Shown here piece after piece: positions 548 through 40,226 of a stretch of 64,000 bases of DNA. Made by a program: the position numbers and the translations under genes. Positions within the stretch are counted from its first letter, which is position 1. Each line of letters begins with the position of its first letter. The notes beneath the pieces were generated by a model, which saw only the letters and a list, made by a program, of their open reading frames with translations, ran no database searches and was not told the origin of the DNA. This stretch comes from Lachnospiraceae bacterium V9D3004 (lineage in GTDB: Bacteria > Bacillota > Clostridia > Lachnospirales > Lachnospiraceae): contig JHWW01000006.1 of the NCBI GenBank assembly GCA_000621985.1, forward strand, positions 124,001 through 188,000, in the 5' to 3' direction.

Positions 548-1666
548 TTAACGTGCTACCCACTTACTATATTTCTTTCCTTCCAATATATCCGCAATTC
601 TCTTACATGCATGCCCGTCACCATATGGGTTGCATGCATTACTCATCTTTTCATATTCTTCAGGATTTTCAAGTAATTCCTTAAACGATGTGTATATAAC
701 ATCCTCGTTAGTTCCGACTAATTTCAATGTTCCGGCATCTATTCCTTCCGGTCTCTCTGTCGTATCTCTCATCACAAGAACCGGAACACCATACGAGGGG
801 CATTCCTCCTGAATTCCACCGGAATCAGTAAGACATAAGAATGATCTGGCCTCAAAGTTATGACAGTCAAACACCTCAATAGGTTCTATGATATGTATCC
901 TGTCACAATCACCTAATTCCTCATCTGCTGCCTTCCTCACGATCGGATTCATATGAATCGGATATACAGCCTTACAATCCGGATGTTCATCAAGGACACG
1001 CCTTATTGCTCTGAACATATTATGCATAGGTTCACCCAGATTTTCTCTCCTGTGAGCTGTAATAAATATCAGCTTATCATCACCAACCCAGTCAAGTTCA
1101 GGATGAGTATAATCTTTTTTCACAGTGTGCTGCATGGCATCTATAACAGTATTTCCGGTAATGTATACTGTATCAGAATCCTTACCTTCTTTTATCAGAT
1201 TGTCTGCTGCTAACTGTGTAGGAGCAAAATTATATTTACTTACAATTCCGACCGCCTGTCTGTTGAATTCCTCAGGATAAGGCGAATATATGTTATATGT
1301 TCTCAATCCTGCTTCAACGTGTCCCACAGGAATCTGCAGATAAAAGCATGCTAATGCAGTAACAAATGTAGTACTCGTATCTCCATGAACAAGTACTACA
1401 TCGGGTTTTTCTTTTTCAAGTACGCCTTTAATACAATTCAAAATGTTGATCGTTATATCAAATAATGTCTGCTGATCCTTCATTATATTCAAATCATAAT
1501 CCGGAACAATATCGAATGTTTCCAATACCTGATCTAACATTTGCCTATGCTGTGCTGTTACACATACAATAGTTTTTATGGACTTTCTTGTTTTCAATTC
1601 ATTTACAAGCGGACACATCTTAATTGCTTCCGGTCTTGTTCCAAAGACCAACATTACTTTTTTCAT
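548..1666 (-). CDS. wecB: UDP-N-acetylglucosamine 2-epimerase (non-hydrolysing)
   Basis: The 372-residue protein is full length for the family. It begins MKKVMLVFGTRPEAIKMCPL, the signature N-terminus of non-hydrolysing UDP-GlcNAc 2-epimerases, and carries VHGDTSTTF, GHVEAGLRT, ITAHRRENLG and the late LTDSGGIQEE segment. It interconverts UDP-GlcNAc and UDP-ManNAc in the cytoplasm, supplying ManNAc or ManNAcA for capsule, exopolysaccharide or wall polymer. It precedes a glycosyltransferase gene on the same strand, as expected in a polysaccharide locus. A GGAG site 13 nt upstream supports the ATG. The family is certain; the polymer made is unknown. Confidence 0.95.
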   Translation of the reverse strand: MKKVMLVFGTRPEAIKMCPLVNELKTRKSIKTIVCVTAQHRQMLDQVLETFDIVPDYDLNIMKDQQTLFDITINILNCIKGVLEKEKPDVVLVHGDTSTTFVTALACFYLQIPVGHVEAGLRTYNIYSPYPEEFNRQAVGIVSKYNFAPTQLAADNLIKEGKDSDTVYITGNTVIDAMQHTVKKDYTHPELDWVGDDKLIFITAHRRENLGEPMHNMFRAIRRVLDEHPDCKAVYPIHMNPIVRKAADEELGDCDRIHIIEPIEVFDCHNFEARSFLCLTDSGGIQEECPSYGVPVLVMRDTTERPEGIDAGTLKLVGTNEDVIYTSFKELLENPEEYEKMSNACNPYGDGHACKRIADILEGKKYSKWVAR

Positions 1667-1802: not shown

Positions 1803-1997
1803 TTAAAATTTATGTTTAATTCCACTTTGCTTCATAATTTCATTAGCTGTATGTCTTGATTTTATCTTTCCATCGACTGTAACATTTATTTTTGTAATCG
1901 GACTATACCAGATATCATGATCCCCTTTTCCATGCCTAACAAAATAACAACCATTATCTTTCATAATCTCTCGTACCTTTTTCTCAAACTCAGCCAT
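1803..1997 (-). CDS. hicA: HicA-like mRNA interferase toxin
   Basis: The product is about 64 residues, starting MAEFEKKVREIMKDNGC and containing RHGKGDHDIWYSP. This matches the HicA/YcfA double-stranded-RNA-binding-like fold, whose single conserved His in a G-[SD]-H motif is the catalytic residue. The C-terminal I-K-S-R-H-T-A-N-E-I-M-K helix also fits the family. HicA toxins cleave mRNA and are neutralised by the HicB partner. A longer reading with 22 extra N-terminal residues (start near 2063) is possible, but the start at 1997 gives the normal family length and an 8-bp overlap with the upstream hicB, as expected for translational coupling. Activity is inferred. Confidence 0.8.
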   Translation of the reverse strand: MAEFEKKVREIMKDNGCYFVRHGKGDHDIWYSPITKINVTVDGKIKSRHTANEIMKQSGIKHKF

Positions 1998-2214
1998 GTA
2001 CTGCCACCTGATCTTCTCTCTCGGTAATGTATGAAAGTTTATAATTTCCCGGTGCAGTTCCATTCATTTTAATCAATTCGGGAACGACATATTTTACTCG
2101 TTCCACAAGCGCATCAAAGGATCCTGATTCCAGTACTAATCCCGGGACATCGTCACTGGTTGCAATCCACACCTCTGCGTCATCATCCCATATAAATCTA
2201 ATTATATAACTCAT
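1990..2214 (-). CDS. hicB: HicB-like antitoxin (DUF1902-type)
   Basis: This 74-residue protein starts MSYIIRFIWDDDAEVWIATS and continues DDVPGLVLESGSFDALVERV, the short DUF1902/HicB-like partial RNase H fold that masks the HicA toxin. It lacks a separate C-terminal DNA-binding domain, so it may not autoregulate by itself. A strong GGAGGTG site precedes the ATG by 7 nt. It lies upstream of and overlaps hicA, the antitoxin-first order typical of DUF1902/YcfA pairs. The pair sits inside the ATPase/polysaccharide region, between two fragments that look like remnants of one nucleotidyltransferase gene, which suggests a mobile insertion. Confidence 0.75.
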   Translation of the reverse strand: MSYIIRFIWDDDAEVWIATSDDVPGLVLESGSFDALVERVKYVVPELIKMNGTAPGNYKLSYITEREDQVAVHG

Positions 2215-2288
2215 AAGATTTCACCTCCGGAATCCTTGGGGGCAGACCCCATTAAGAAAATGTTAAGTATATAAGTAACCAATCCCAT

Positions 2289-2429
2289 TCAAGCATCGGC
2301 TTCTTTTCTCCGGTGTATGATTCTATCAATGTTCTCACATTTTGAAGCCTGATGCACAATATTATCAACATATTTTAATTTGATGTCAGCAACATATTGA
2401 TCATCTTTGTATTGTAATAATGTACACAT
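2289..2429 (-). pseudogene. Truncated nucleotidyltransferase-like small ORF (5' fragment)
   Basis: A 46-codon frame with ATG at 2429 and a GAGGTG site 9 nt upstream reads MCTLLQYKDDQYVADIKLKY, then VDNIVHQASKCENIDRII, then HRRKEADA and a stop. The N-terminus resembles the lead-in helix of minimal nucleotidyltransferases, but the sequence breaks off exactly at IDRII, before the catalytic G-S-x-D-x-D motif. It starts 23 bp after the end of the ATPase gene at 2453 and was probably its operon partner before disruption. It could also be a genuine small protein. Confidence 0.4.
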
Positions 2430-2452
2430 TTTCAAGTCACCTCAGATCCTGC

Positions 2453-4042
2453 TCACACAACCCCTTCGATCAGTACCTTTCCACCAACCTCAACTCTATC
2501 TACTCCCTGCTTCTTGTTCTTATTGAAGTTGAAACTAAGCATATATCCTGTATTCAGGTTGAAGTAATCCAGATACTCGCAGATCTGCTTTTCTCCTGCA
2601 GCATTATACCTCTCTCCTCGCCATATCTTGAGTTCAAGGATGTACTGTTTACCGAGATAATCCACGATCACATCTGTTCTAGTCTGGTCTCTGGTCTGAG
2701 CTTCTATATAATAGTTACCTGTTCCGTTGATGATAGGTTTAAGATATAACAGGAACAGCTCTCTTCCATCCTTTTCTTTGAACCTTTCTACTAAAGGACC
2801 GCAGATTTCTGTATATGTTTTTATGAATCTATCGAGAATCAGTTCCATATTAAGTATTCCATCTGTGACGAACTGATTCTTTTCAAGGTCACCTTTTCTT
2901 GAAAAGACGTTGCTTTTCAGTTCTTCATCTGAGATGAAAAGATTATACAGCATGGTCTCAAATATACGGTTGGCAATTCTTACGGAATTGTGGTTATTAT
3001 ATATCAAACCGTACATTTGCAAGCGAACTATTGCGTCATTTTGTGCACTCCAAGCTAACTTTGTTCCTTCCATCAATATGCTTCTAATAGATGCCTTTAG
3101 TTCCGGATAATTATTCAGATTCTTGGTTATTGACTGGAATAATGTATTGTTCTCAGCAAGTATCAGCTTTACCGCCTCATCTATTCCATCTCTTGTCCAT
3201 GCTTCCCCCGAACTCATAGTCTTGCAAACTCTTGTGTCTATCAGTTCACATATACGACTTACAAGAAATGGATAGCCGTTCGTATAATCACGGATCTGCT
3301 TAGCAATGTTTGCCGTGTCCATACCTGTATTGTGGTCTGCTTCATATTCATCAAGCATTCCTTTGATGCCGGGTTCTGATAAGCTCATGTCTATTGTGAA
3401 GTCAGCTGCTATGTAACAAGGGCTATTTTCTTTGGAATTCTCATCATCTCTTATTTTTGCTTTCAGATGTTTTACATCCGTTACTCCGGCAAGGATGACG
3501 GATTGGAATGTTGGGATATCATCTGAATCACGACTTATATATCCATCTCTCAATTGAGCAAGGAAATCGAGAAAAACCTGATTATTTGTTGCGCTGTCTA
3601 CTTCATCGATAATAAGGACAATTTGCCTCTCCGCTTTTGAACACCAAAGGCGTAATAAGCTCATCATATCCTGAAGTTTCGTATCAGTTTCAGACTTTGA
3701 AGCCAACTGTTTTAACTGTTCGATAATATCATCAGGTATTTTGATCAGATTATAATCCAGTTTATTCAAAATCAAACGAATAAACCCTTTACTAAAAGAT
3801 TCTTCCGTCCTAAAGGATGCACTTCCTAGGCCTTGGAAATCCAGACTTACAACTTCATAATCATCTTCTAATACTTTACGCAAAGCCGTCAGCGTTGTCG
3901 TCTTTCCATACTGCCTTGCACGATTTATCGTGAAGTATTCACCTGCATCCACAAGCTTCTTTATCTCTTTCACTCTCTCGGAGAGATCTACCATATAATG
4001 CTTAGAAGGTATACACAATGCTGTTGTATTAAACTTCTTCAT
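2453..4042 (-). CDS. AAA-like ATPase with C-terminal PD-(D/E)XK-type domain
   Basis: The 529-residue protein has an N-terminal AAA-like P-loop domain. It begins MKKFNTTALCIPSKHYMVDL, with a Walker A variant RARQYGKTTTL near residue 43 and a Walker B-like IVLIIDEVDSA near residue 145. The C-terminal 90 residues contain DVIVDYLGKQYILELKIWRG, matching the D...ExK core of PD-(D/E)XK nuclease-like folds. Proteins of this architecture are abundant in Bacteroidetes and Lachnospiraceae and have no settled function; defence and element maintenance have both been considered. It lies 24 bp after a paralogue of the AAA-ATPase_like family, so the two are co-transcribed. An AAAGGAGAG site supports the ATG. 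Nuclease activity is inference. Confidence 0.8.
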   Translation of the reverse strand: MKKFNTTALCIPSKHYMVDLSERVKEIKKLVDAGEYFTINRARQYGKTTTLTALRKVLEDDYEVVSLDFQGLGSASFRTEESFSKGFIRLILNKLDYNLIKIPDDIIEQLKQLASKSETDTKLQDMMSLLRLWCSKAERQIVLIIDEVDSATNNQVFLDFLAQLRDGYISRDSDDIPTFQSVILAGVTDVKHLKAKIRDDENSKENSPCYIAADFTIDMSLSEPGIKGMLDEYEADHNTGMDTANIAKQIRDYTNGYPFLVSRICELIDTRVCKTMSSGEAWTRDGIDEAVKLILAENNTLFQSITKNLNNYPELKASIRSILMEGTKLAWSAQNDAIVRLQMYGLIYNNHNSVRIANRIFETMLYNLFISDEELKSNVFSRKGDLEKNQFVTDGILNMELILDRFIKTYTEICGPLVERFKEKDGRELFLLYLKPIINGTGNYYIEAQTRDQTRTDVIVDYLGKQYILELKIWRGERYNAAGEKQICEYLDYFNLNTGYMLSFNFNKNKKQGVDRVEVGGKVLIEGVV

Positions 4043-4066
4043 ATACAGGTCTCTCCTTTCCGGATA

Positions 4067-5695
4067 TCAGTCAACATCTTTGCTGTGTTCTATAATCGTG
4101 CAGGTATGCTCTTTCGTTTTCTTATCGTAATTTATTCCAACCAGCAGGATCCTGCCACCGAACTGTTCCAGTATTCGCGGATAGTTGTTGTCAAGTATCT
4201 GTTCGATCGCACCATCACTGCTTTCATTCCACTTCAATTCAATTATTATAGCCGGAAGTGATGACCTCCTGTTCGGCAGGAATACAACATCCGCTATGCC
4301 ATGTCCTGAAGGAAGTTCTTCCACCTTTGCGTATTGATCTACACAGGAGATATATGCCAATTTTATTACATACCGTAGACTTTGTTCGTTATTGTAGAAG
4401 TTCGGTGCATATTCTGAATCATGAACATTCTGAATGGCCACTGCTACCTCTTTTTCTTTTCCGGCCAATGTATCCTTAAGAAGCTGATCCGACTTCTTTA
4501 CAAGCCTGATCAGTTCTTTGTGCTTTGCCTTACGTAGTATCTCCTCGAATTCAGTTCTCACTTCCTCATTAGGAATCTTCGCAATACCGGTAAGTTCTTC
4601 TTCTCCTTCACCATAAGAATCAGACTCTTCCTCGTAAGTCAGATATCCGAGATGAATCAATAATGTCAACACATCATCTTTCGATGTGAATGTCTCCAGG
4701 TCATTTCCGAAAGAATCAGGATCTACTACTATGCTTTCTCCGGCAATAAGCCTTGCTATATCATCCTGCAAGCCATCCTGATCCATATCAATATATGTCA
4801 TCAGAGTCTCAGCTGCAGATGTTTTTTTCCAATACGATCTATATTTGCCGCTCTCTAACGCCTGCATGACAGAATATGGATTGTATATGGATCTGCACTC
4901 GCCGACTGTATAACCGTCATACCATCTCTTCATGCCCTCAAAACTTTTTCCCCGGGCTTTACACAGCGATTTCACTTCCTCTTCAGTGAAACCGACATAT
5001 CCCGCAAATGAGCGTGCATCAAGTACAGAATATTCCTGAAAATCAGATATTGCCGACTGAGAACCATCCTTTTTGATCGGGAGGATTCCTGTTATATATG
5101 CAGCCGCCACTGCTTCAGGTGTGAAATTATTGTTCTTAAACCAGCCTCTTAACTGATTCAGATACATATCCTGAGTGTCCGGATCTTCTTTTGATTCCCT
5201 TATGAGTGAATCCCATTCGTCAATAATAAATACTATCTTCGTCCCGGTTCTTCTTACGTATTCAAGAATACAGGCATTCAACTCTGTCTTGTCACTTAAT
5301 TCCGGACATTCCGATATTATCTCATTTAATATGGTCCTATCAATGATCCTGGGTATCTCTCTTATCGGTCTCTCCTGTTTTTTTGCATCTGAGATGAATC
5401 CTGATACATCAAGACTGATGACATGATATTTATTTATGTGTTTCTCGTAACTGTCATCCTTGGAAATCTCATATTCCGCAAACAATTTGTGAGAATCACA
5501 TGTCTTATCGTAATACGCACACAGCATCTGTGCAGCGTATGATTTTCCAAATCTACGAGGTCTGCTTATACAGGTGAGCTTCTTTTTGGTTCCGATTGTG
5601 CTGTTGATCAGACTGATCAGCCCGGTCTTATCCACATAGTCAGATTCCAGTATTTCCGCAAATCCGCCATTACCCGGATTCAAGTATGTTCCCAT
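4067..5695 (-). CDS. AAA-ATPase_like / PDDEXK_9 family protein
   Basis: The 542-residue protein starts MGTYLNPGNGGFAEILESDY with VDKTGLI, the hallmark N-terminus of the AAA-ATPase_like family. The P-loop region is SRPRRFGKSYAAQML near residue 45, Walker B is KIVFIIDEWDSLI near residue 155, and TGILPIKKDGSQSAISDF is the family sensor region. The C-terminus has ADVVFLPNRRSSLPAIIIEL followed by KWN, the D...ExK core of the PDDEXK_9 domain. Function is unknown. It is the first gene after the leader and terminator described for the LoaP locus, so its expression may depend on read-through. A second, decayed copy lies at 28554-29085. Confidence 0.85.
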   Translation of the reverse strand: MGTYLNPGNGGFAEILESDYVDKTGLISLINSTIGTKKKLTCISRPRRFGKSYAAQMLCAYYDKTCDSHKLFAEYEISKDDSYEKHINKYHVISLDVSGFISDAKKQERPIREIPRIIDRTILNEIISECPELSDKTELNACILEYVRRTGTKIVFIIDEWDSLIRESKEDPDTQDMYLNQLRGWFKNNNFTPEAVAAAYITGILPIKKDGSQSAISDFQEYSVLDARSFAGYVGFTEEEVKSLCKARGKSFEGMKRWYDGYTVGECRSIYNPYSVMQALESGKYRSYWKKTSAAETLMTYIDMDQDGLQDDIARLIAGESIVVDPDSFGNDLETFTSKDDVLTLLIHLGYLTYEEESDSYGEGEEELTGIAKIPNEEVRTEFEEILRKAKHKELIRLVKKSDQLLKDTLAGKEKEVAVAIQNVHDSEYAPNFYNNEQSLRYVIKLAYISCVDQYAKVEELPSGHGIADVVFLPNRRSSLPAIIIELKWNESSDGAIEQILDNNYPRILEQFGGRILLVGINYDKKTKEHTCTIIEHSKDVD

Positions 5696-5785: not shown

Positions 5786-5819
5786 AAAAAAAGGGCAAGC
5801 TTCGCCGCTCCGCCCTTTT
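5786..5819 (-). terminator. Intrinsic terminator closing the leader RNA
   Basis: On the minus strand an 8-bp stem AAAAGGGC/GCCCTTTT (arms 5812-5819 and 5789-5796), with an inner AGC/GCT helix and a GGCGAA loop, is followed by a run of Ts. It lies about 90 bp upstream of the ATPase start and about 190 nt downstream of a strong promoter, so it would stop transcription before any coding sequence unless overridden. T/A runs on both sides allow it to work in both directions. Confidence 0.75.
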
Positions 5820-5979
5820 ATTTTTTAAAAAAATTATTCAGCCGAATTTCCTGAAGCTCCACGCTTCCCTATTATATCCATCGGCAATTCCTTACGCGTC
5901 ACACGTCGTTAAGTCTCACCGATTTCACAATAAATTGCAGACGCCTGCAAGACCTCTGCAACATTTTTTACCCACATGT
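5786..5979 (-). ncRNA. Hairpin-rich leader RNA, candidate LoaP antitermination target
   Basis: From the predicted start near 5979 the minus-strand transcript can form a hairpin with TTGCAGA/TCTGCAA arms (about 5967 to 5935), a second closed by ATCGG/CCGAT (about 5924 to 5879), a third with TTCAG/CTGAA arms (about 5855 to 5836), and then an intrinsic terminator. No open frame with a ribosome site was seen in it. It begins immediately after the LoaP-like gene and precedes the operon. A stand-alone small RNA is the alternative. The folding was done by eye only. Confidence 0.5.
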
Positions 5980-5985
5980 AGTTGA

Positions 5986-6014
5986 ATTATACCATTTAAG
6001 CTATATTTGGTCAA
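5986..6014 (-). promoter_or_regulatory. Near-consensus sigma-70/sigma-A promoter of the leader
   Basis: The -35 TTGACC (6014-6009) and -10 TATAAT (5991-5986) are separated by exactly 17 bp. It sits 6 bp past the stop codon of the LoaP-like gene and points toward the leader, terminator, ATPase genes and polysaccharide genes. Confidence 0.8.
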
Positions 6015-6020
6015 TGTTTT

Positions 6021-6782
6021 TCACAACATCTTGATTTCTTCCCTGTGGAACACCACTTTACTTGGTTCATCTCCGAACATTTTGATGAGCACAGTCCATT
6101 CGTCTTTGTCTGTATCTGCAGACCGGAATTCGCCGTACATTCCGGAAAACATTCCGGAGAGTATGAGCACCTCTGATTTCGCCGTCTCATTGCCATCACT
6201 GTGTGTTGACGGTTCCGCTGCTTCATGTTCCATAATGTTAAGTTGCCTGATTCTTTCGAATTCTTCATCAGTCACTCTTGCAACCGCAGACAGCCCCACT
6301 TCAACAGGCGTCTCTCTTCCTAAGAAATTAATGTCTAAGAATGCAAGTCTTCTGTGCCTGTCTACTTTCTTGATATATCCGGACATGTCTCTTAAGGCAC
6401 CTTCGGTGATGCATACTCTGTCTCCGACTATGAAGCCCTCTGAATAGCGGACCATATACTCATCATCCATAAGATTCTGCAAAAAATGCTGTTCTTCTTC
6501 GGTTATCGGTGATACCTGATCGGCATTTTTAAGCATCTTGGTAAGACGCGGCACCTTCCACAATTCCCTAAGCATCTTGTCCATATTCTCTTTGTCACTG
6601 TCTATGAATACATATCCGGGGAACATTACCTTGATCTTGTCATGCCAGTTCTTGCAATATCTCTTCTTTACCATATATCTTGGAATGAACATTTCATTAT
6701 AATAATCTTTATCAAGTATTGCCATGCATAAGTCCATGCACATCTGTTCTTCTCCGGACATCGTCTGGAACACATACCACAT
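6021..6782 (-). CDS. loaP: LoaP/NusG-family specialised transcription antiterminator
   Basis: The 253-residue protein starts MWYVFQTMSGEEQMCMDLC, as NGN domains of NusG paralogues do, and continues with KVMFPGYVFIDSD, the conserved strand of the NGN fold. A KOW-type region follows (EGFIVGDRVCITEGALRDMS, GYIKKVD, LGRETPVEVGLSAV, near residues 120-175), then a linker and an extra C-terminal beta-rich segment (VLILSGMFSGMYGEFRSADT) that looks like a second KOW. Specialised NusG paralogues of the LoaP/UpxY type bind RNA polymerase at one operon's leader and suppress termination in long polysaccharide or antibiotic operons. The start at 6782 has an AAGGTG site 6 nt upstream; a GTG at 6887 would add 35 residues without family resemblance. 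Its position before a promoter, leader and terminator fits a cis-acting local regulator. Confidence 0.8.
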   Translation of the reverse strand: MWYVFQTMSGEEQMCMDLCMAILDKDYYNEMFIPRYMVKKRYCKNWHDKIKVMFPGYVFIDSDKENMDKMLRELWKVPRLTKMLKNADQVSPITEEEQHFLQNLMDDEYMVRYSEGFIVGDRVCITEGALRDMSGYIKKVDRHRRLAFLDINFLGRETPVEVGLSAVARVTDEEFERIRQLNIMEHEAAEPSTHSDGNETAKSEVLILSGMFSGMYGEFRSADTDKDEWTVLIKMFGDEPSKVVFHREEIKML

Positions 6783-40116: not shown

Positions 40117-40203
40117 CAAGAACGCAACCGGCTGTCATCCCGAAAAACGGCTTAGACCCTATGGCTTTGTGTCATTATCTTTCGATAACTTTACCCACTA
40201 TAA
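40117..40203 (-). promoter_or_regulatory. c-di-GMP-I (GEMM) riboswitch aptamer
   Basis: The minus strand shows the class I landmarks in order: GGGTAAAG, a hairpin GTTATC-GAAA-GATAA with the conserved GAAA tetraloop, GACACAAAGCC, the tetraloop-receptor strand AGGGTCTAAG, a second hairpin loop, and the 3' strand ACAGCCGGTTGC. The strict consensus ACGCAAAGCC is ACACAAAGCC here, one change. Downstream is a terminator and then a GGDEF gene. Class I members bind c-di-GMP; a subclass prefers 3',3'-cGAMP and cannot be excluded by eye. Confidence 0.85.
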
Positions 40204-40226
40204 TTCGTAACCGTACATATACGAAT

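Follow-up and report, generated by a model that had tools for sequence, protein, structure and literature searches.

A probable LoaP target leader in Lachnospiraceae: a candidate divergent member of a conserved element with a layout common to phages

In the available part of the report on Bacillus velezensis, LoaP-dependent read-through needs a hairpin in the leader, and LoaP counters NusA (PMC12691694). DNA upstream of the hairpin was also tested there, and the same text does not exclude a role of the non-template DNA. The ops element of RfaH has the sequence GGCGGTAGCGTG (PMC5995543), and the core of its DNA mini-hairpin consists of the pairs G2:C9, C3:G8, and G4:A7 (PMC5995543; PMC11001881). 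DNA mini-hairpins of the GNA class are very stable, GCGAAGC melting at 78°C (PMC4686876). For the RNA family RAGATH-28 (RF03052), a search of one literature collection found neither text nor function in print; the RAGATH texts seen there in part concerned RAGATH-18 and Staphylococcus phages. A literature search for LoaP in Lachnospiraceae gave nothing relevant.

The stretch of DNA analyzed here, referred to as the window, comprises 64,000 nucleotides of Lachnospiraceae bacterium V9D3004, and its features are listed in Table 1. The original prediction had named a NusG paralogue of the LoaP type, and this identification was supported by a score of 167.1 bits against the NCBIfam antiterminator LoaP model NF033641 (cut-off 125). 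The protein matched PF02357 and remained below the cut-offs of the NusG, RfaH, and UpxY models (for RfaH, 39.4 bits against 144.5). One further PF02357 match was present in the same genome (C19); it scored higher than the window LoaP and is likely the housekeeping NusG.

LoaP proteins usually consist of an NGN domain and a single KOW domain, a norm that lies outside the definition of NF033641. The window LoaP, which is longer than most LoaPs, departs from this norm and yet scores above the cut-off of the model. Its C-terminal 50 residues or so align with the KOW domain of the same protein (profile match of KOW2 to KOW1: probability 84.6; E value, 6.9e-6), and AlphaFold2 predicted strands in this region (block pLDDT 73–87; whole model 73.7; pTM 0.48). 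Pfam detected no KOW in the final 54 residues, and its KOW-type matches in the C-terminal region of relatives were weak (three of four relatives). The domain comparison and the structural model suggest that the window LoaP may be a variant with a second KOW-like domain. Such a domain was also seen in the LoaPs of loci L082, L083, L086, L088, L089, and L139 (6021–6185 in the window), and the octamer described below lies 3′ of loaP in all of these except L086. In the stretch PRYMVKKRY of the window LoaP, KKR aligns to IER of PDB chain 8f5g_A; as a guess, we take these residues to be the E40/R41 RNA-binding site named for LoaP in PMC12691694.

The promoter lies 6 nt beyond the loaP stop codon, and transcription would start near 5979. 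Promoter-like sites as a class occurred at chance level (35 found against 34.0 expected in shuffles, sd 6.4), two of the 35, in 12 kb, having 11 of the 12 consensus bases; 10 terminator-like sites were found against 6.1 expected (sd 3.0). The leader from 5979 to 5786 (194 nt) has a predicted folding energy of −61.7 kcal/mol (z −4.41), and none of 200 shuffled sequences was equally stable. The first gene past the terminator begins at 5695. The window sequence thereby confirmed the predicted module, in which loaP is followed at 6 bp by a promoter, then by a structured leader and a terminator that precedes any gene. As for the three hairpins that the leader had been said to form, its structured character held and the exact number did not, for the predicted fold comprises the first hairpin of Table 1, a long stem (5935–5871) carrying the hairpin P1, and two short hairpins followed by the terminator.

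Table 1. Features of the loaP locus and the genes downstream of it (window coordinates).
Feature	Position	Strand	Details
loaP	6021..6782	(-)	253 aa; NGN + KOW + extra C-terminal KOW-like domain (approximately residues 204-252)
Promoter TTGACC-17-TATAAT, TG before -10	5986..6014	(-)	11/12 consensus bases
First leader hairpin UUGCAGA...UCUGCAA	5935..5961	(-)	Fold; outside conserved element
P1, proposed LoaP-binding hairpin	5891..5913	(-)	ACG-A-CG..CG-CGU core, bulged A; full-leader fold and R1 match
Conserved linker GATGGATATAAT (GGNUGNCAUA-type)	5871..5882	(-)	Alignments
GGCGGAGC, second copy of form GGCGNAGC	5807..5814	(-)	Directly before conserved octamer
Conserved octamer GGCGAAGC, proposed ops-like pause/loading site	5799..5806	(-)	Within terminator hairpin
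Intrinsic terminator	5786..5819	(-)	Stem-loop AAAAGGGC...GCCCUUUU, then U run
AAA-ATPase_like gene (PF09820), first after terminator	4067..5695	(-)	
Second AAA-ATPase gene, PD-(D/E)XK match	2453..4042	(-)	
DUF1902/HicA-like pair	1803..2214	(-)	
wecB-type UDP-GlcNAc 2-epimerase, first polysaccharide gene	548..1666	(-)	TIGR00236, 505.6 bits

The search for LoaP genes covered 10 genomes of the genus, 299 of the family, and named genomes (80 loci kept). The window LoaP as a single-sequence query against genome contigs found no relative; alignment A1 as query found 301, of which the best 80 were used. In Lachnospiraceae and some other Bacillota, an element of common layout recurs next to many loaP genes. 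It consists of the hairpins P1 and P2, which both covary, a linker between them resembling GGNUGNCAUA, and the octamer GGCGNAGC, the sequence after P2 reading UGGCGAAGC. The lower stem of P1 is variable and covaries, and the upper part UCGUCGCNUYGCCGCG is fixed in most members. A first RNAalifold set of 14 elements missed P2; in a more even set of 24 sequences, RNAalifold found P1 and P2 unaided, with changes on both sides in 9 of 14 pairs. Model R1 was built from 24 sequences, the window being excluded. Across 87 R1 matches (84 distinct), 96.6% of cells were paired and covariation reached 0.482, compared with 0.179 in shuffled and at most 0.091 in slid alignments, in an alignment (A5) that was itself fitted to R1. 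An arm-swap control outside the model supported P2 (5.66 vs. 5.23, sd 0.07) in 68 non-redundant elements; of the 87 matches, three that lacked the octamer and 16 that resembled others had been set aside. Covariation across homologous leaders, proposed as a check on the original prediction, was obtained for P1 and P2; the first window hairpin was absent from an alignment of seven relatives. A T-run followed the element in 25 of the 68 (background 6.9%), so the leader terminator is not a fixed part of it. The terminator helix P3 received modest support (5.93 vs. 5.62, sd 0.07), with at least seven of eight pairs in 16 of the 68 elements against 10.4 expected (sd 2.5), and the terminator was therefore kept out of the element definition.

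The occurrence of the element followed that of LoaP. Among the 299 family genomes, 20 contained R1 matches at E ≤ 0.001 (26 matches), and 19 of these belonged to the 31 genomes with a LoaP above the cut-off (Fisher p 5e-21). The twentieth, G060, is outside those 31 and carries its copy at a contig end. Twelve of the 31 LoaP genomes had no R1 match at this threshold, including that of the window, whose match had an E value of 0.096. Twenty of the 26 copies adjoin a LoaP match; three of the remaining six are at or near contig ends, and three lie away from loaP before polysaccharide-type genes, as named by eye (G101:C85, G101:C120, and G256:C1), the G101:C120 copy having no octamer. R1 gave no match at E ≤ 1 at nine genus loci around lower-scoring NusG-type proteins, and none at one genus LoaP locus (L007). 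In the phylum sample, 10 of the 12 LoaP genomes came from other families, and R1 matched in none of these 10. Two phylum matches, L356 and L357, fell within reading frames and were rejected as chance. In L208, from a LoaP genome outside the family, GGCGAAGC and a stretch of GGTCATAG were noted by eye 3′ of loaP. Four loci of another family (L202, L203, L204, and L207) had no R1 match and shared a stretch near GTTGTAAACGGTCACTAAAGAAGGA upstream of loaP, perhaps owing to relatedness, as all four come from one genus.

A similar arrangement was found in phages. RAGATH-28 occurred above its cut-off once in the 299 family genomes; this copy lies 22 nt past a LoaP-like match (114.4 bits, under the LoaP cut-off) and is itself followed by a terminase-like gene. 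A single copy was likewise present among 295 genomes of the order, after a NusG-like and before a terminase-like frame (both by eye). Fifteen viral loci were found with the LoaP-like protein beside the family copy and 10 with A1, two contigs being common to both searches. The octamer was located within 330 nt downstream of the phage LoaP-like gene at 22 of 25 loci, representing 13 distinct elements. RAGATH-28 scored above its cut-off at 10 of 17 loci scanned (16 viral loci and L208), all 10 of them viral, and three of the phage or prophage proteins, when scanned, matched phrog_6386, a transcription antiterminator. At L199 (4603–5288) and L358 (1196–1771), a LoaP- or NusG-like gene, RAGATH-28, and a terminase-like gene (by eye) form a compact putative phage antitermination module. 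The window leader gave no RAGATH-28 match up to E 10 (gathering score, 45.3 bits); the linker GATGGATATAAT and GGCGAAGC of the 3′ half of RAGATH-28 are present in it, and the adjacent stem is not recognizable. Three genus loci (L003, L009, and L013) scored 21.9–24.0 bits against the cut-off of 45.3, and L005 and L008 were not among the matches listed. A search of viral contigs with the P1 pattern gave at least 120 matches. GGCGN(N)AGC occurred no more than 160 nt away from six of the 120 listed, but these did not look element-like and were taken as chance.

These distributions bear on the view that loaP is simply accompanied by a leader of an ordinary kind, either an attenuator or a sensor of a metabolite. 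A leader with a terminator is a common arrangement, and the window elsewhere contains a c-di-GMP-I riboswitch (40120–40205, minus strand, 65.5 bits). Rfam, on the other hand, had no match in the leader at gathering score and only chance-level ones at E ≤ 10, and both the presence of LoaP in 19 of 20 element genomes and the same layout beside LoaP-like genes in phages make this view very improbable.

The position of the element relative to loaP was related to the length of the protein. From the 80 named loci, 73 LoaPs were parsed (seven loci without a parsed protein were left out), and in 62 of them the octamer was found no farther than 500 nt upstream or 400 nt downstream of the gene. Position was scored by TGGCG[AGT]AGC only, and some loci counted as not found therefore do carry the element (e.g., Sharpea, AGGCGAAGC). 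Among the six LoaPs of at least 225 aa, the octamer was downstream in five and not found in one; among the 67 shorter LoaPs, it was upstream, within 500 nt, in 57 and not found in 10. Long LoaPs with a downstream octamer also occurred at L005, L013, L047, and L057. Exceptions were the shorter LoaPs L037 and L046, with the element downstream, and L023, with one copy on each side of loaP. With exceptions, the element follows LoaPs that appear to have a second KOW-like domain and precedes most ordinary ones.

The predominance of upstream copies would agree with an autoregulatory leader that controls loaP itself, the downstream position in the window being secondary, and in several loci the octamer abuts the loaP ribosome-binding site. 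We consider this unlikely as the main role of the element: the octamer is downstream of the longer LoaPs, in phages, at L037 and L046, and in the second L023 copy, and some copies stand before polysaccharide-type genes away from loaP. Autoregulation and operon control are moreover mutually compatible.

In its own genome (3.4 Mb), the window leader (5916–5789) was the single R1 match at E ≤ 10 among the 150 of 587 first-look candidates that were scored. The score was 22.5 bits (E 0.096, with rough calibration), and membership gains weight because the match lies directly 3′ of loaP. Three relatives, L082, L083, and L085, rank with their LoaPs among the nearest to that of the window (best 80 of 301) and have GGCGAAGC 3′ of loaP; they align with the window through P1, the linker, the octamer, and the terminator region. 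R1 gave weak matches to L082 (E 0.024) and L085 (E 0.59) and none to L083; at L084, which is equally close by identity, neither the octamer nor an R1 match was present. As read from the alignment, the second pair of P1 is C-G in the window; L082 and L085 have U-A there, and L083 has U-G. That the window leader resembles the element only as any structured leader would is suggested by an E value of 0.096 in 3.4 Mb and by two chance-like R1 matches at E 0.007–0.009 in 388 genomes, but the solitary match right after loaP and the alignable relatives render such a coincidence extremely improbable.

The leader is thus best regarded, from its sequence, as a probable divergent and weakly scoring member of the element. 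P2 is not recognizable in it, and the P1 loop is UGUGA in the window and mostly NUYG in relatives; hairpins of the dfn type are described by UNCG. The 23-mer of P1 folded by itself prefers a shifted pairing (−3.7 kcal/mol); the P1 pairing is seen when the full leader is folded. The terminator hairpin of the window contains tandem octamers, GGCGGAGC and GGCGAAGC, both of form GGCGNAGC (5799–5814). The comparative evidence makes it likely that the leader is the cis target of LoaP, as originally predicted. The binding hairpin, at that time unassigned and thought to be perhaps a new variant, can be tentatively assigned to P1, which appears to be a variant of the hairpin conserved beside many loaP genes.

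We therefore favor, with a probability of roughly 0.75, the reading that the leader is a loading site for LoaP, from P1 binding through a pause to read-through of the terminator. RNA polymerase would start near 5979, and P1 would form in the nascent RNA and be bound by LoaP. An RNA structure of the P2 type together with GGCGNAGC would delay the polymerase long enough for LoaP to dock, and the modified polymerase would then ignore the terminator and read into the downstream operon. Binding, pausing, and read-through are all proposed steps of this model. In the window, pause and terminator may be one structure, since P2 is not recognizable and the octamer is located in the terminator hairpin.

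Several element sets were found through GGCGAAGC or GGCG[AT]AGC, and the conservation of the octamer was therefore judged on a set of 68 hits defined by P1 only and on Rfam-defined copies, sets that are not free of bias, as a few loci were brought in by R1 or RF03052, whose models contain the octamer. An octamer of form GGCGNAGC followed P1 in 66 of the 68 hits: GGCGAAGC came first in 62 and further on in L146, GGCGGAGC occurred in three (L087, L094, and L131), and neither was present in two (L022 and L189). In the Rfam-defined copies, N was A in seven, T in two, and G in one of 10, and C in L358; the other seven bases were constant in these 11. By itself the octamer is unspecific, with 224 occurrences of GGCGNAGC in the window's genome against 196 of the reversed pattern. 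After the octamer, a pyrimidine occupied position 10 in 63 of 68 elements, and a purine occupied position 11 in 61 of 68. Only about two bases separate P2 from the octamer; an RNA ending at position 10 would therefore extend about 11 nt beyond P2, and about 11 nt is the spacing of hairpin-stabilized pauses.

GCGNAGC belongs to the GNA class of DNA mini-hairpins and has one base fewer than the core of the RfaH ops hairpin; the octamer would give the same core (G2:C8, C3:G7, and G4:A6) with one loop base fewer. A DNA folding program gave free energies of 0 for GGCGAAGC and the C variant, −1.5 for T, −1.3 for G, and −0.9 for ops. The GGCGAAGC hairpin thus gains no support from the program, and the support for a GCGAAGC hairpin is its published melting point (PMC4686876). 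The boldest part of our proposal, a tentative one to which we give little more than one chance in three, builds on this analogy. LoaPs of Lachnospiraceae and phages might be loaded by a bipartite signal, namely the RNA hairpin P1 and a mini-hairpin GCGNAGC of the ops kind in the non-template DNA; P2 would serve as a pause hairpin, located about 11 nt behind the end of the RNA. The reading of DNA by RfaH and that of RNA by LoaP would then be halves of one older loading mechanism, and RAGATH-28 would be the phage form of this bipartite signal. The DNA hairpin would be an inferred component of this site.

The octamer could instead act as RNA, either paired with the P1 loop or read by LoaP or NusA, with no ops-like DNA hairpin, a possibility we hold at a little over one chance in three. 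The P1 loop of some loci (L025 and L034), GCUUCGCC, has GGCGAAGC as its exact reverse complement, and the DNA folding program gives GGCGAAGC no stable structure. In the available text on dfn, LoaP binds RNA, and the single-stranded DNAs tested from upstream of the hairpin were bound weakly (PMC12691694). The complementarity is nevertheless missing in the window, L003, and L005. The variable base of the P1 loop (T, C, A, or G) lacks compensation in the octamer, and changes in phages L342 and L344 add mismatches (by eye). The version in which the P1 loop pairs with the octamer was considered and found unsupported by the base changes seen.

The genes downstream had been predicted to form one antiterminated unit of AAA-ATPases, hicBA, wecB, and a glycosyltransferase. 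The cluster continues to the left of the window (G000:C5:104501-124500, read by eye), where same-strand polysaccharide-type genes extend about 18 kb, to about G000:C5:106000. By eye, the genes beyond wecB are glycosyltransferase-, polymerase-, LicD-, and flippase-like. The loaP gene is near a putative long biosynthetic operon, with wecB in the window and polysaccharide-type genes (by eye) beyond it. Gaps and promoter-like sites occur among the downstream genes. The same-strand run of polysaccharide genes agrees with the predicted unit; the AAA-ATPases, the HicA/DUF1902 pair, an opposite-strand transposase, and these gaps and promoter-like sites make it less certain. The AAA-ATPase/nuclease-like genes and the HicA/DUF1902 pair between the leader and wecB (1803–5695) may be insertions. 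The transposase-like gene lies inside the polysaccharide cluster (L191 10899–12518, plus strand, by eye).

The locus shares with dfn and mln of B. velezensis a loaP near its target operon, a structured leader, and a terminator before the first gene (PMC12691694). The dfn/mln leader has a hairpin needed for read-through (PMC12691694), to which P1 may correspond in the window. Unlike dfn and mln, the targets here resemble polysaccharide operons, the window LoaP appears to have a second KOW-like domain, and many members of the element have no T-run after them. For dfn, the available text of that report mentions neither P2 nor the octamer (PMC12691694). With RAGATH-28 the element shares two hairpins, a CAUA linker, and a final AUGGCGAAGC, and RAGATH-28 copies above the cut-off directly follow LoaP-like genes in phages and in prophage-like regions; the RAGATH-28 P1 loop differs, being of the UUGAUUCGUC type. 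This comparison suggests a likely function for an RNA family without a function found in print. Like RfaH and ops, the system would involve a NusG paralogue acting on long operons and a similar geometry of the mini-hairpin core; unlike them, it has the RNA hairpins P1 and P2 and a GNA-type loop, and the window has GGCGAAGC instead of the ops sequence. The octamer thereby bears on a question raised in the available text of PMC11001881, whether other loop bases in ops-like hairpins recruit other elongation factors. Taken together, the sequence comparisons point to a real LoaP leader, probably a divergent form of a conserved element that would serve for loading and has a layout common to phages, and suggest that RNA-guided antitermination by LoaP spans Bacillus antibiotic operons, polysaccharide operons of gut bacteria, and phage genes.
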